From contig JAIMKR010000001.1 in the NCBI GenBank assembly GCA_020692325.1, positions 52,704 through 116,703 on the forward strand: a stretch of DNA of 64,000 nucleotides, written 5' to 3'. Source of the DNA: Desulfocurvus sp. (GTDB taxonomy: Bacteria > Desulfobacterota > Desulfovibrionia > Desulfovibrionales > Desulfovibrionaceae). The notes under the pieces were generated by a model. It made no database searches, was not told the origin of the DNA, and saw nothing but the letters and a program-made list of their open reading frames with translations. Positions 17,405-38,429 of this stretch are shown here, piece after piece; position 1 is the first letter of the stretch; each line of letters begins with the position of its first letter. The position numbers and the translations under genes are program-made.

Positions 17405-17498
17405 GGAAGCGCATCGTCACCGGTGTGGCGCCTGGACTTCAAATCCAGTGGAACGTCGAGAGGCGTTCGGTAGGTTCGACCCCTATGCGCTTCCGCCA
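17405..17498 (+). tRNA. selC: tRNA-Sec (anticodon TCA)
   Basis: 94 nt including an encoded CCA. The acceptor stem is a perfect 8-bp helix GGAAGCGC (17405-17412) / GCGCTTCC (17487-17494), one pair longer than in ordinary tRNAs. The anticodon arm is CTGGA-CTTCAAA-TCCAG with TCA in the loop. A long variable arm (GAACGTCGAGAGGCGTTC) and the GGTTCGACCCC T-arm complete it. These are the standard marks of bacterial selenocysteine tRNA. It decodes UGA with SelB. selA, selB and selD are not in the window, and no selenoprotein gene was recognised here. Confidence 0.95.
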
Positions 17499-23184: not shown

Positions 23185-25836
23185 TCAGTCCTGCATGGCC
23201 CGGGTCTGGGCGTTGGCCTCGGCCACGCGCTCGGACAAAAAGGCGACCAGGAAACGGTTCACGGCCGAGGCCAGCTGCGGGGCCTTGCGCTGTATGAGCC
23301 GGAAGCGTTCGAGGGACAGTCTCCGCAGCACGCAGGGCTCCACGGCGATGACCGAGGCCGAGCGCGGCGCACTGGTGTACAGTCCCATCTCTCCGAACAC
23401 CGTGCCCGGCCCCATTTTCTTGAGCCGCAGCACCTTGCCGCCCGGCAGGGCAAGCTCCACGTGCACCTTGCCCGATTGCAGGAAGTACATGCTGTCCGAG
23501 GGATCGCCCTGGCGGATGATGACCTGCTTGGAGCGCACTTCCAGCCGCTCCAGGCATCCGAGCAGCGCCGGAACGAGCGCCGGCTCGGGGAACGTGTCGG
23601 CCAGCAGGCGTTCCAGCGTGTCGCAGCCGTCGACCCCGGGCAACAATTCGGCCAGCCCGCCGGAATCACCGGAAAGGCCACCCGCCTCGGCCAGAATGGC
23701 GTCCTCGCAGCGTTCCAGCGCATAGTCCAGATTGAGCGCCACGCGGCACACGCCGGCCTCGTCGCCCATGCGGTAGCCCAGGTCCTCCAGGTGCTCCTCC
23801 ATCTCCAGCGGCACACTGGTCAGATAGACGAGCAGCCCGCGCGAACGCGCCAGCGACTCCAGCCGCCTGAATCCGACGACCGCGTCCGATCCCAACCCCA
23901 TCACCGCACCAAAATCCAGCAGCACGTAACGCAGGGGGGCGTCCGCAGCCAGACGCTCGCGCACCCGCCGGACCACGCCGTAGAGCACGCCCAAAAACAG
24001 ATAGCCATGCAGGCGCAGAATCATGATGCCACCGCCACGCTCGCGCAGCACGCGCCGCTGTGCAGGCGAGCGCTCCACGTTGCTGCGGAGCAGGTCGCCG
24101 CTCCGCTCCTGCCGCACCCCGCCGCCATCCACCGCCCGGGAAAGGCTGAGCAGCACGCCCAGCCCAAGACCAAGGAACACGCCGAGCACCGGTCCAAGAA
24201 ACACGACGAACAGACAGGTCGCCCAGGCCGCGCGCAGGTCCTCCTTACGCGTGAGCGGATTGCGCGCGTCGCGCAGCATCCAGCCCACGGGCATGGCGAG
24301 CCCTATGGCCAGCAGCGCGCCCAGCGGCGCGAACACCGGCACATACTCCAGCGCGGGCGCGCCGAAACACAGCGCGGCGAGGCACAGAAGCCCGGCGAGG
24401 AATCCGGCCAGCGGTCCGCCGGCCCCCAGGCTCCGCAGCCCCAGACTGCCGGAGAGGGAAAGCGACGCGGGCATGGCCCCGGCGAGACCGGACAGCAGCG
24501 ACGCCGCGCCGACCAAGCGCATCCGCCCTCCGCCGTCGGCCTCGGCGTCGAGGGCTGCCTCGAGAATGGGTGTGCGCACGATGGAGGGCAGAATGGCCAC
24601 AGCCGCCACGGCGGCGAAATATTCCGCCCGGCCGGCCAGTGCCCCCCATTGCACGCGTGACAAGGTTCCGGGATCGAACAGGGCGAGCGGGATCGGTACG
24701 TCCGACAATTGCGGCAGGCGCGCGGCGGGACCGGTCAGCGCGGCCTGGAGCGGCGCGAGCGCGCCTGGCAGGTGGAACAGGCCCAGGGTGAGGCAATTCC
24801 AGCCGGCCACGGCCACAACAACAATGGCGAGCGGCCAGAAAAGGTTGCGAAAAAACATGTGCGCGACGAAGCACAACAGCCCCAGGGTCAGCGCCGGGGT
24901 CCACAGGGGCCACGTCCGCGCCAGGGCCGGACCGAGCTGATCCAGGGAGTCGAGCGGGATGGCCGCGAGTTCCGGGGAGGAAGCGAGCATGGCCGCGCCC
25001 CAGGCCTTGACGAGCAGCAGGCCGAAGCCGGCCATCATGCCGCCGAGAATCTCCACGGGCAGAAAACGCACACGCTCCGCGAGGCCGAAGCGAGAGAGCG
25101 CCATGCCGAGCAGCCCCGAAAGCAATGCGCACAGCGCCAAAGCGACCGAGAGCGTCGCCGCGACGTCCAGCTCGGTGGCGCGGCCGTCCAGGTCCAGCCC
25201 AAGGGCGGCGAGCAGCAGGAACACGCAGAGCACGGCGGAGGGTTCGGGCGCGCCCAGGGCCACGGGCGGACGCCCGCTCAGGGCGAACAGCAGGCAGCCG
25301 AGGACGGCGGGCGCAAGTAAAAGCGGCAGCGCATGCGCCGTGAGCCCCGCTGCGGGGGGCGCCGTTAGCGCGATCATGGACAGGGCGAGACAGACAAGAA
25401 GCATATGCGCGCCGGCAACCCCGCCGGCGAACAGGTTCACGACCGGGTTGCCGGCGAAGAACGCGCGCACGCGGCCTTGCTGAACAGCGTTCCCGGACGC
25501 AGCCAAGGCGATGTTTTCCGGTGCTGCTGCGGTCCGCCCGGCCGGGGACAGCGCCGAAGTCTCGGTTTCGTCGGTCACGAGATCGTCCAGGCGCACGTCG
25601 CCCACTTCGGGCTCGCGGTCTTTCGAAACAGCCGCCGGCGCGGGACCGACCAGACCGACGACGCCGCACTTGGGGCAACGGGCCCGCCGTCCGGCGAACG
25701 CCGCCCGCAAAGTCTGGACATGCCCGCACGACACGCAATGAAACGTCGCGCCGGTCGAAGCCGGTTTCTCCCCGTCCGTCACGCCCCCCCCGGGGGCGAC
25801 CGGAGCGGACGCCCCATGATTCTGCTCGTCGGACAC
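23185..25836 (-). CDS. Zinc ribbon-SulP-STAS-cyclic-nucleotide-binding fusion membrane protein
   Basis: 883 residues. Order: an N-terminal zinc ribbon with C34-x2-C37 and C54-x2-C57; a linker; and 10 to 12 hydrophobic helices of a SulP/benzoate-type transporter (about 120-570). A STAS domain (about 595-715, beginning IMILRLHGYLFLG) and a cyclic-nucleotide-binding domain (about 765-870, RQGDPSDSMYFLQSGKVHVEL...GTVFGEMGLYTSAPRSASV) follow. GTG 25836 was chosen because GGAGG is five nt upstream; an in-frame GTG at 25878 lacks an SD. Anion transport gated by a nucleotide is the simplest reading, but substrate is unknown. Transcribed alone. Confidence 0.85.
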   Translation of the reverse strand: MSDEQNHGASAPVAPGGGVTDGEKPASTGATFHCVSCGHVQTLRAAFAGRRARCPKCGVVGLVGPAPAAVSKDREPEVGDVRLDDLVTDETETSALSPAGRTAAAPENIALAASGNAVQQGRVRAFFAGNPVVNLFAGGVAGAHMLLVCLALSMIALTAPPAAGLTAHALPLLLAPAVLGCLLFALSGRPPVALGAPEPSAVLCVFLLLAALGLDLDGRATELDVAATLSVALALCALLSGLLGMALSRFGLAERVRFLPVEILGGMMAGFGLLLVKAWGAAMLASSPELAAIPLDSLDQLGPALARTWPLWTPALTLGLLCFVAHMFFRNLFWPLAIVVVAVAGWNCLTLGLFHLPGALAPLQAALTGPAARLPQLSDVPIPLALFDPGTLSRVQWGALAGRAEYFAAVAAVAILPSIVRTPILEAALDAEADGGGRMRLVGAASLLSGLAGAMPASLSLSGSLGLRSLGAGGPLAGFLAGLLCLAALCFGAPALEYVPVFAPLGALLAIGLAMPVGWMLRDARNPLTRKEDLRAAWATCLFVVFLGPVLGVFLGLGLGVLLSLSRAVDGGGVRQERSGDLLRSNVERSPAQRRVLRERGGGIMILRLHGYLFLGVLYGVVRRVRERLAADAPLRYVLLDFGAVMGLGSDAVVGFRRLESLARSRGLLVYLTSVPLEMEEHLEDLGYRMGDEAGVCRVALNLDYALERCEDAILAEAGGLSGDSGGLAELLPGVDGCDTLERLLADTFPEPALVPALLGCLERLEVRSKQVIIRQGDPSDSMYFLQSGKVHVELALPGGKVLRLKKMGPGTVFGEMGLYTSAPRSASVIAVEPCVLRRLSLERFRLIQRKAPQLASAVNRFLVAFLSERVAEANAQTRAMQD

Positions 25837-36713: not shown

Positions 36714-38429
36714 ATGATACGCGACTCCCTTAAATATGATGCGAACCAGACCCCGCCGACGCATCTGGCCTTCTGCCTCGCCCTCATGCACGTGCTGATC
36801 ATCTTCGACGCGGTCATCTTCATTCCCAACGTACTGAGCAAAACCGTCGGCGTGGAGCCGCACGCCCTGGCCTTCATCACCTTCGGGTCCATCATCACCT
36901 CCGCCGTGTTCACCTTCCTGCAAAGCCGCACGCGCTTCGGCATTGGCGCTGGTTTTCTGCTCTTCACCGGCTCATACAGCGCCTTCATGCTCTGCTCCAT
37001 CGACGCGGTGCAAATGGGGGGGCTTCCACTTTTGGCCACAGTGTCGCTGCTCACGGTGCCGGTGGTGTTCCTCTACACCTTCTTCATCCGGTTCTTCCGC
37101 CACATCATCACCCCCGCCGTGGGCGGCGTGGTTGTGCTACTCATCGCCACGGCCATGGTGCCCATCGGTCTCTCGCTGTGGGCGGGGTCGCTCAGACCCG
37201 GCGCCTCGCCTTCCCTGGCCCGACTGGTCACAGGCGGAGTCACGACGCTCAGCCTCACGCTGCTCATGCTCTTCGGCAAGCCGAAGCTCAGGCTGTGGAG
37301 TCCGCTCATCGGCATGGCGTGCGGCTACATCACGGCTGCGCTCACCGGGCTGCTCGACTTCGAAAACACGACGAGCAGCGTCTGGTTCGGCCTGCCCGAT
37401 CTGAACGCCTGGCCAGGACTGGAGACGCATCTTCACTGGGACCACCTGCCGCTGCTGCTGGCCTTCGGCATGGGCATGGTGGCCAGCATGATCGAAAGCA
37501 CCGGCAACATCATGCTCGTGCAGCAGATCTCCACGCGGGACTTCCGCCGCGTCTCCTACGATCAGGTGCAAAGCGGACTGTACTGCGATGGGCTGAGCAA
37601 GGTGGCGGCCGCGCTGCTGGGCACGGCAGTGCCATCCCTCTATTGCGACAACCTCCCCCTCATCGAGATGACGGGCGTGGCCTCGCGTCGCGTCGGCGCC
37701 ATCGGGGCGGGCATTCTGTTCGCGCTTGCCTTCATGCCCAAGGTCAGCGGCGTCATACTCGACATGCCCGGCCCGGTCATCGGCGGCTTCCTCGTGGTCA
37801 TCGCCGCGCTGTTGTTCCACGCGGGGTTCGGGCTGGTGGCCATGACCCGGCTGAACAATCAGCATGGACTCATCCTGGGGCTCTCGCTGGTGGTGGGGCT
37901 GGTGGCGGGCGGCCGGTCGTTCTTTCCCGGCGTGGTCCCCTCAAGCCTGAGCCCCCTGCTGCAAAATAGCGTGGCCATGGGCGGCTTCACGGCCTTCTTG
38001 CTCAGCACGCTGGCCTTTCTCGCTCCCAAGCGCGGCATCGGCGGGGTGTTCCGAGCCGACGTCTCGGACCTCGCGAAACTGCAGAAAACGCTCAACGCCG
38101 GACGGGCGAGGCTCAAACTCTCGCCGGAGCGCTTCAACATCCTCTCGCTGTGCTGCGAGGAGGTTTTTGTGCGCATGATCGCGGCGCCCGACGTGAACCC
38201 CGACCACAACCTGACCATGCGCGCCGCCCTCACCGAGGATGGCTGTTTCACGGAGATGATTTGCGGGCACAAGATGGACGACATCAACAATTTCGCCGTG
38301 CCGGAATCCCTGCTGAAAGCAACGCCGGAGGATCTCGACCAACTGGGGTTGATGCTTTTCTCGGAATACGCGTACGATGTGAAACACCTGGAAATCTCGG
38401 GATATTCGTACATTTCCTTCATGATTTGA
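36714..38429 (+). CDS. NCS2 xanthine/uracil-type permease fused to a degenerate HATPase-like domain
   Basis: 571 residues. Residues 1-435 are a nucleobase:cation symporter-2 transporter with about 12-14 hydrophobic segments (FGMGMVASMIESTGNIMLVQQIS in the central QxxSxG-like region). Residues 440-571 are soluble and resemble an RsbW/HATPase_c_2 fold: LSPERFNILSLCCEEVFVRMI in place of the usual EEAxxNxI helix. They end in LGLMLFSEYAYDVKHLEISGYSYISFMI. The Asn that binds Mg-ATP and a DxGxG box are missing, so ATP binding is doubtful. The SD is weak. Nucleobase transport is inferred from family. Confidence 0.82.
   Translation: MIRDSLKYDANQTPPTHLAFCLALMHVLIIFDAVIFIPNVLSKTVGVEPHALAFITFGSIITSAVFTFLQSRTRFGIGAGFLLFTGSYSAFMLCSIDAVQMGGLPLLATVSLLTVPVVFLYTFFIRFFRHIITPAVGGVVVLLIATAMVPIGLSLWAGSLRPGASPSLARLVTGGVTTLSLTLLMLFGKPKLRLWSPLIGMACGYITAALTGLLDFENTTSSVWFGLPDLNAWPGLETHLHWDHLPLLLAFGMGMVASMIESTGNIMLVQQISTRDFRRVSYDQVQSGLYCDGLSKVAAALLGTAVPSLYCDNLPLIEMTGVASRRVGAIGAGILFALAFMPKVSGVILDMPGPVIGGFLVVIAALLFHAGFGLVAMTRLNNQHGLILGLSLVVGLVAGGRSFFPGVVPSSLSPLLQNSVAMGGFTAFLLSTLAFLAPKRGIGGVFRADVSDLAKLQKTLNAGRARLKLSPERFNILSLCCEEVFVRMIAAPDVNPDHNLTMRAALTEDGCFTEMICGHKMDDINNFAVPESLLKATPEDLDQLGLMLFSEYAYDVKHLEISGYSYISFMI

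Follow-up and report, generated by a model that had tools for sequence, protein, structure and literature searches.

To our knowledge, the regulation of the SLC23 (NCS2) branch of transporters is much less clear than that of the SLC26 branch, where control is exerted by a STAS tail. The two branches have a 7+7 architecture in common, to which SLC26 adds a regulatory STAS domain, as stated in the abstract of PMC6497670. The NCS2/NAT permeases carry the NAT motif, which passages of PMC4346270 and PMC3405029 give as [Q/E/P]-N-x-G; for XanQ of E. coli, the titles cited in these two papers name Gln-324 and Asn-325 as essential, Asp-304 and Glu-272 as irreplaceable, and the carboxyl group as essential at Asp-276.

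In partner switching, STAS proteins stand on the antagonist side, whereas the kinase/anti-sigma side is held by RsbW, SpoIIAB and UsfX, anti-sigma kinases of the GHKL type (HATPase_c_2). The general base of the RsbW-type kinases is the Glu of the N-box. In HATPase domains, the N-box Asn chelates Mg and the G1 Asp contacts adenine; both are described as absolutely conserved in a passage of PMC9137472, according to which either mutation, of the Asn or of the Asp, abolished the function of one HATPase protein.

Here we consider a gene the product of which appears to join an NCS2-type permease to a domain of the latter kind. It lies in a stretch of 64,000 nucleotides from Desulfocurvus sp., referred to as the window, on contig C17 of a genome of 3.05 Mb; Humidesulfovibrio and other Desulfovibrionaceae MAGs are among the closest named relatives. 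The window protein resembles the SulP/SLC26 proteins with a C-terminal STAS domain both in the 7+7 architecture, as ascribed to the two branches in PMC6497670, and in the possession of a soluble C-terminal partner-switch domain. However, SulP carries the antagonist side of the switch (STAS), whereas the window protein carries the kinase/anti-sigma side (RsbW); neither PF00916 (Sulfate_transp) nor STAS gave a match in it at E <= 10.

According to the ORF list and translation, the gene is an open reading frame of 571 codons that starts with ATG; Met 1 is invariant in an alignment of 11 sequences, window protein included, the rows of which were trimmed to the window's residue 1. Its parts, in window coordinates, are the following:

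36714..38429, + strand: whole gene, 571 aa, an NCS2-type membrane domain with a pseudo-RsbW tail (ORF and translation)
36771..38009, + strand: NCS2-type permease domain, residues 20-432 (PF00860 over residues 20-397, TIGR03173 pbuX over residues 22-432)
37494..37508, + strand: TM8 substrate-site segment E261-S-T-G-N265 (alignment with XanQ, where E261 = E272 and N265 = D276)
37647..37658, + strand: altered NAT motif D312-N-L-P315, XanQ Q324-N-N-G327 (alignment with XanQ)
38022..38426, + strand: predicted pseudo-RsbW (GHKL-fold) tail, residues 437-571, 135 residues (sub-threshold HATPase_c_2, AlphaFold2 model, PDB matches)
38124..38180, + strand: ex-N-box helix, residues 471-489, with E483 kept and the Asn replaced by R487 (secondary structure of the model, residue mapping, census)
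38262..38282, + strand: ex-G1 box, residues 517-523, C-G-H-K-M-D-D, with the adenine-binding Asp replaced by C517 (residue mapping, census)
38343..38351, + strand: putative G2 remnant L544-G545-L546, without the preceding Gly-Gly of RsbW (alignment, census)

The TM8/TM9 numbering is the one that we take to apply to this permease, and residues 544-546 are, presumably, what remains of the RsbW G2 box. We also assume a permease topology with both termini inside; the P-K-R-G sequence that closes the last hydrophobic segment fits a cytosolic location of the tail.

The membrane domain and its substrate site

The original prediction had described the membrane part as a normal NCS2 transporter and a nucleobase permease. 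That it is of the NCS2 type stands: PF00860 (Xan_ur_permease) matches residues 20-397 with 130.7 bits (cut-off 27; E 7.2e-38), and the protein shares this domain with the NCS2/NAT (SLC23) permeases XanQ, UacT and UraA. The words "normal" and "nucleobase" need correction, given that the protein matches five permease models of NCBIfam and stays below the curated cut-off in all five (for instance, 199.5 bits with TIGR03173 pbuX, cut-off 414.15, and 164.6 bits with ncs2, cut-off 291.8) and that its substrate-site residues differ from those of XanQ and of the tail-less relatives. Specifically, the His, the TM8 Glu, the TM9 Asp and the NAT Asn of E. coli XanQ are all kept, as H26 (H31), E261 (E272), D292 (D304) and N313 (N325), respectively, whereas four XanQ residues are replaced: Y88 stands for N93, N265 for D276, D312 for Q324, and P315 for G327. 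The resulting D-N-L-P departs from the [Q/E/P]-N-x-G pattern.

The same positions set the tailed proteins of the wider clade (46 sequences, see below) apart from 21 tail-less relatives. Gln at XanQ position 324 is found in none of the 46 tailed proteins versus 17 of the 21 tail-less ones. Position 327 is Pro in 32/46 of the former and Gly in 21/21 of the latter. At position 272, where all 21 tail-less proteins have Glu, the tailed proteins have Glu (26), Lys (15), Gln (4) or Asn (1); the TM8 alignment runs without gaps among the rows listed. From these alignments we infer that the substrate of the tailed clade has changed, and the members with Lys at position 272 may, possibly, transport an anion. 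At one locus (L112:4444-5985), the gene of a tailed permease shares its first 4 bases with an ORF whose C-terminal domain is a carbonic anhydrase, and this permease has Lys at the position of XanQ E272; the arrangement hints at bicarbonate or another anion as the substrate of the Lys subclade.

The tail: predicted fold and ATP site

The tail of 135 residues (437-571) agrees with the claim that about 130 soluble residues follow the transporter, and both motifs that had been quoted from it are present, at residues 479-489 and 544-563. It had been held to be HATPase_c_2-like. In the whole window protein, the HATPase_c_2 profile matches residues 446-556 with 13.6 bits (cut-off 27.4); the isolated tail scores 17.9 bits (E 0.0033, profile positions 1-112 of 127), with the same curated cut-off not reached. 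The claim is nevertheless borne out by the relatives and by structure databases. In L017, a relative of the same architecture, HATPase_c_2 scores 39.0 bits (E 9.6e-10), over the cut-off; at E <= 1, the profile matches 6 of the 9 full-length relatives scanned, L017 among them, and 14 of 22 tails (window included), with a best value of 5.2e-11. A sequence search of the PDB with a profile of 22 tails gave three matches at E <= 10, all of them named RsbW (E 0.012-0.018). When a tail profile of 38 rows was compared by HHalign with 10 RsbW-like domains that stand alone, the result was 98.3 %, a value that depends on the tail profile because the same profile had collected these 10 domains; with the columns shuffled, the value was 0.2 %. 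The HATPase_c_2 likeness of the tail, sub-threshold when taken alone, exceeds chance.

Structure prediction points in the same direction. The best AlphaFold2 model of the tail, made from an alignment of 11 sequences of close relatives, has a pLDDT of 79.5 and a pTM of 0.77 (the other four models: pLDDT 77.7, 63.7, 63.6 and 55.3), and its elements are ordered as beta-alpha-alpha-beta-beta, a weak lid (blocks of pLDDT 52-71), alpha, beta, beta. Foldseek against the PDB returned 16 chains at E <= 0.001, every one of them RsbW/SpoIIAB. The ten entries with the highest Z in VIA-align (8ih8, 8jzt, 3ke6, 1tid, 6m37, 6m36, 1thn, 1th8, 1l0o and 1til) are, likewise, all of the RsbW/SpoIIAB type, with Z from 14.4 down to 12.2, the best match being 8ih8_C (Z 14.4, rmsd 2.4, 114 aligned); beyond the top ten come SiaB (6kko) at 10.8, LvrC (9qih) at 9.6 and the ATPase domains of histidine kinases at 7.2 or below. 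In the full-length model (pLDDT 42.7, pTM 0.36), a low-confidence helix occupies the place where the last strands of the tail belong. The comparison with RsbW/SpoIIAB thus puts the modelled tail inside the GHKL family, and not on an unrelated fold: its predicted fold is RsbW/SpoIIAB-like.

The tail is like RsbW, SpoIIAB and UsfX in fold, in length, in the N-box Glu and in the last Gly-Leu of G2; it differs from them in being joined to a membrane transporter and in lacking the N-box Asn, the G1 Asp and the Gly-Gly of G2. The alignment-based census extends the loss of the Asn to the whole clade and that of the Asp to most of it. The N-box Asn is present in 0/46 tailed proteins, in 10/10 standalone RsbW-like controls and in 0/14 domains of a second family (see below); the G1 Asp in 3/46, 10/10 and 0/14, respectively; and the N-box Glu in 46/46, 10/10 and 14/14. 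The controls and the 14 second-family proteins are 24 of 38 loci (L035-L049, L056-L078), namely, those with a best domain of at least 12 bits with the tail profile, and the two sets were told apart by ORF length (145-214 versus 440-492 aa) rather than by residues. In the window tail, the N-box Glu corresponds to E483, the N-box Asn to R487, and the G1 Asp to C517. Among the 46 tails, the position of the N-box Asn is taken by His (29), Tyr (8), Ala (4), Ser (3), Arg (1) or Leu (1), and the three tails with a G1 Asp read I-D-S-S, without the DxG motif. L544 and G545 are kept in more than 80 % of the tailed proteins. Together with the published roles of the two ligands, this census makes the claimed loss of the ATP/Mg ligands right, and right for the clade as a whole.

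It could be argued that the tail still works as a kinase or ATPase and uses ligands of an unusual kind, considering that the N-box Glu is retained throughout and that three of the tails have an Asp in the G1 column. This appears most improbable because the Mg-chelating Asn is missing in 46/46 proteins and the G1 Asp in 43/46, and because the window protein has lost the Gly-Gly of G2 as well. The tail would be incapable of the phosphorylation that ATP drives in partner switching.

Spread of the fusion and selection on the tail

The fusion is widespread among the relatives. In the family (59 genomes), the window protein is matched in 18 genomes at E <= 1e-20; there are 19 such matches, 14 of which extend to the C-terminus, and three of the five that fall short of it (L018, L020 and L022) have tails of comparable length, too, one of the comparisons behind this having omitted L002 and L034. 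In the class (278 genomes), at least 52 genomes have a match to the full-length profile, with at least 43 matches, in at least 36 genomes, reaching position 567 or beyond of 572 and at least 17 matches stopping at 430-467; all these counts are lower bounds, obtained at E <= 1e-40 with up to 4 candidates scored per genome. A search of the phylum (395 genomes) with the tail profile gave matches at E <= 6e-28 in 6 genomes. Four of these genomes do not belong to the family, and their loci (L052-L055) are full fusions. A contig scan that used patterns of close relatives only gave 12 loci. In a plasmid collection, 328 records had a match to the permease, and none of the matches covered 80 % of the query. 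At one locus (L123), two tailed permease genes stand in tandem with 100 bases between them, in a genome with four tailed copies.

A tree was computed with iqtree from 67 distinct permease domains, 46 of tailed and 21 of tail-less proteins, the latter including XanQ, UacT and UraA, with identical sequences collapsed. In it, the 46 tailed proteins form one clade with support 100 and without a single tail-less member; excluded from this tree were L026/L087, L032, which reaches the contig end, and L005/L034/L051, which have an in-frame stop. The lengths of what follows the permease are bimodal, 137-152 residues in the tailed proteins versus 7-66 in the tail-less ones. Judging by the sequences, the combination of NCS2 with a pseudo-RsbW is a trait of the clade and not a peculiarity of this genome; no description of an NCS2-RsbW fusion was found in the open-licence PMC literature, although it may still be published elsewhere, and the same literature yielded no paper treating SLC26, SLC23, the STAS domain and SpoIIAA jointly.

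A tree of the tails alone, based on 140 columns, splits the 46 into groups of 38 (support 79) and 8 (support 100); the second Asn-less family joins the 38 and the canonical RsbWs join the 8, the support for the split being 71. Taken at face value, this topology would conflict with a single fusion, unless it reflects a long-branch effect on 140 columns. Either the short alignment misplaces far-diverged tails or one exchange of a tail may have occurred.

Selection on the tail was estimated as dN/dS (NG86) for 13 pairs, some of which share a sequence; a value for the tail could be computed in 10 of these. The tail values range from 0.08 to 0.49, against 0.06-0.30 for the permease parts of the same pairs, and are higher than the latter in 8 of the 10 pairs, being equal or lower in L006/L088 and L027/L028. 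The tail thus seems to be constrained, yet more loosely than the membrane part, and dN/dS values in this range indicate that it is retained and is not debris. In one Deltaproteobacteria MAG (L034:3947-5602, the same place as L005), the frame is interrupted by a TAG after residue 534 and the tail is thereby shortened by its last 37 residues, which implies that the end of the tail may be dispensable there, unless the stop is an error of the MAG. The truncated relative, the faster evolution of the tail and the failure to find a partner might be taken to mean that the tail is vestigial, a frozen fusion without present function. We regard this as very improbable: in 10/10 measurable pairs, dN/dS of the tail is well under 1, its length is steady at 137-152 residues throughout the clade, and residues such as E483 are invariant.

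Gene context and possible roles of the tail

The surroundings of the gene and of its relatives were compared in 45 stretches. The commonest clusters of neighbours occur in 7, 6 and 5 of these, mostly those of the window's close relatives, and the cluster seen in 7 is made up of ORFs that lie antisense over the permease; this table of neighbours is crude, with ORFs chosen greedily and an antisense ORF displacing the permease in 8 of the 45 stretches. STAS, SpoIIE and HATPase domains were found at E <= 1e-5 in 0 of 20 adjacent proteins (18 beside tailed permeases and the 2 of the window), 6 of which had no Pfam match at this threshold. The window gene is flanked by a sigma-54 activator downstream and a FAD-dependent oxidoreductase upstream. 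A search of the window for riboswitches gave, at the Rfam gathering threshold, only matches to tRNA-Sec and a tRNA; the selenocysteine tRNA gene lies at 17405-17494 (+).

Parts of partner switches do occur elsewhere in this genome, in which 8 matches to STAS were counted. On contig C2, a standalone RsbW adjoins a STAS protein, and an ORF of 644 residues on contig C26 (L036:250-2181) contains a receiver, a SpoIIE phosphatase, an RsbW-type HATPase and a STAS domain, i.e., the whole partner-switch chain. There are also four SulP-STAS proteins, one of which exceeds the PF00860 cut-off as well (28.8 versus 27 bits). The STAS domain encoded at 23773-24036 (-) of the window belongs to a SulP-STAS protein that has a cyclic-nucleotide-binding domain, too.

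The original prediction had suggested that a transporter coupled to an anti-sigma-like fold would be a direct link between uptake and regulation. From this interpretation, the RsbW/SpoIIAB-like fold, the degenerate site and the fusion to NCS2 are retained, whereas an anti-sigma module and a direct link are much less likely. No partner-switch gene is conserved next to the tailed permeases, and the window gene, unlike those of RsbW, SpoIIAB and UsfX, has no gene of a sigma factor or antagonist beside it. A tail that sequesters a sigma factor or an RsbV-like protein, so that uptake reprogrammes transcription, would have the predicted fold of an anti-sigma factor and could find counterparts in the proteins on C2 and C26. 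We consider it rather unlikely all the same: with no such gene conserved nearby, it is the fold that has to carry this explanation, and the RsbW fold serves outside sigma control, too, e.g. in GHKL-STAS pairs of immune/toxin loci (a passage of PMC13373217), while the sigma-54 activator downstream in the window stands for another kind of control.

Searched with the tail profile, the phylum further yielded a family of proteins of about 450 residues (L165-L178; first seen in L057-L077) with an N-terminal RsbW domain that, like the permease tails, lacks the N-box Asn (14/14) and DxG; HHalign relates the two at 98.8 %, and the support for their common origin is 71. Unlike the C-terminal tail on a permease, this domain is N-terminal, soluble and part of a conserved gene cluster, a dehydrogenase operon in other genomes of the Desulfobacterota type. 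Three clusters of neighbours accompany it (HisC-like transaminase, molybdopterin subunit, FeS/FAD), all three in 11 of 14 stretches. In the operon of L166, the best NCBIfam model is xanthine dehydrogenase for the Mo and FAD subunits, and a glyceraldehyde-dehydrogenase model narrowly above XdhC for the FeS subunit. All these scores are below the equivalog cut-offs, and, therefore, xanthine is not established as the substrate. The label of acetyltransferase-like, given by eye to the remaining 300 or so residues of the Asn-less proteins, was dropped after four of them showed no Pfam match and one more no NCBIfam match. Beside the dehydrogenase cluster of L169 (6817-10509), there are a STAS protein, a standalone RsbW and a Cache-HAMP-SpoIIE phosphatase, and L178:8841-11130 contains a second Cache-HAMP-SpoIIE phosphatase with an ORF of 109 aa that clusters with the STAS protein.

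The two purine-flavoured contexts of a nucleotide-blind RsbW domain are suggestive, and no more than that. They bring to mind a re-use of the former ATP pocket as a sensor of a small molecule, perhaps a purine, which would gate the transporter from inside in a feedback by product or substrate. The conservation of the ex-pocket (E483 in 46/46; L544 and G545 in more than 80 %) speaks for such a sensor, as does the association of the Asn-less RsbW family with xanthine-dehydrogenase-like subunits. However, those subunits stay below the equivalog cut-offs, BLAST with the L166 and L170 stretches found no such dehydrogenase operon next to any of the tailed permeases examined, it is doubtful whether the window permease is specific for purines at all, and a support of just 71 links the two degenerate domains, so that we deem this explanation unlikely.

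Taken together, the data make it reasonably probable, in our opinion, that the window gene encodes a protein of the NCS2/Xan_ur_permease family with a cytosolic RsbW/SpoIIAB pseudo-kinase tail that is a regulatory or docking module and acts by binding. This role is modelled on SLC26, in which the architecture known from SLC23 is combined with a STAS domain of regulatory function. The tail would sit beneath the transporter core, as STAS does under the related SulP/SLC26 transporters, would serve in regulation as well as in oligomerisation or docking, and might alter transport by binding either its own twin in a dimer or a STAS-type partner. The coupling might also work outwards, such that the state of transport shifts the availability of a partner-switch protein, which is the weakest element of the scheme. 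What counts against a binding module is that no partner gene is conserved nearby, that the tail changes more rapidly than the permease and is truncated in L034, that the tails-only tree is split, and that the full-length model (pLDDT 42.7) and three of the five tail models (55-64) are of low confidence.

A bolder version, which we find rather improbable, would see in the tailed proteins a clade of "transceptors": the rewired NCS2 core, in which XanQ Glu-272 is Lys, Gln or Asn in 20/46 proteins, would signal the state of the ligand or of transport, and the RsbW, freed from phosphorylation, would capture and release a STAS protein by binding. If this were true, NCS2-RsbW would be the mirror image of SulP-STAS, with the two halves of the partner switch each attached to the same transporter fold, and the two kinds of transporters could even regulate each other.

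The clade cautions against a plain annotation of such proteins as xanthine/uracil permeases. It offers a well-defined case, open to testing, in which a pseudo-kinase would act on a transporter, with a tail of the type that is the partner of STAS, here without a kinase site; if the tail does bind a STAS protein, a single polypeptide would unite uptake with partner-switch signalling.
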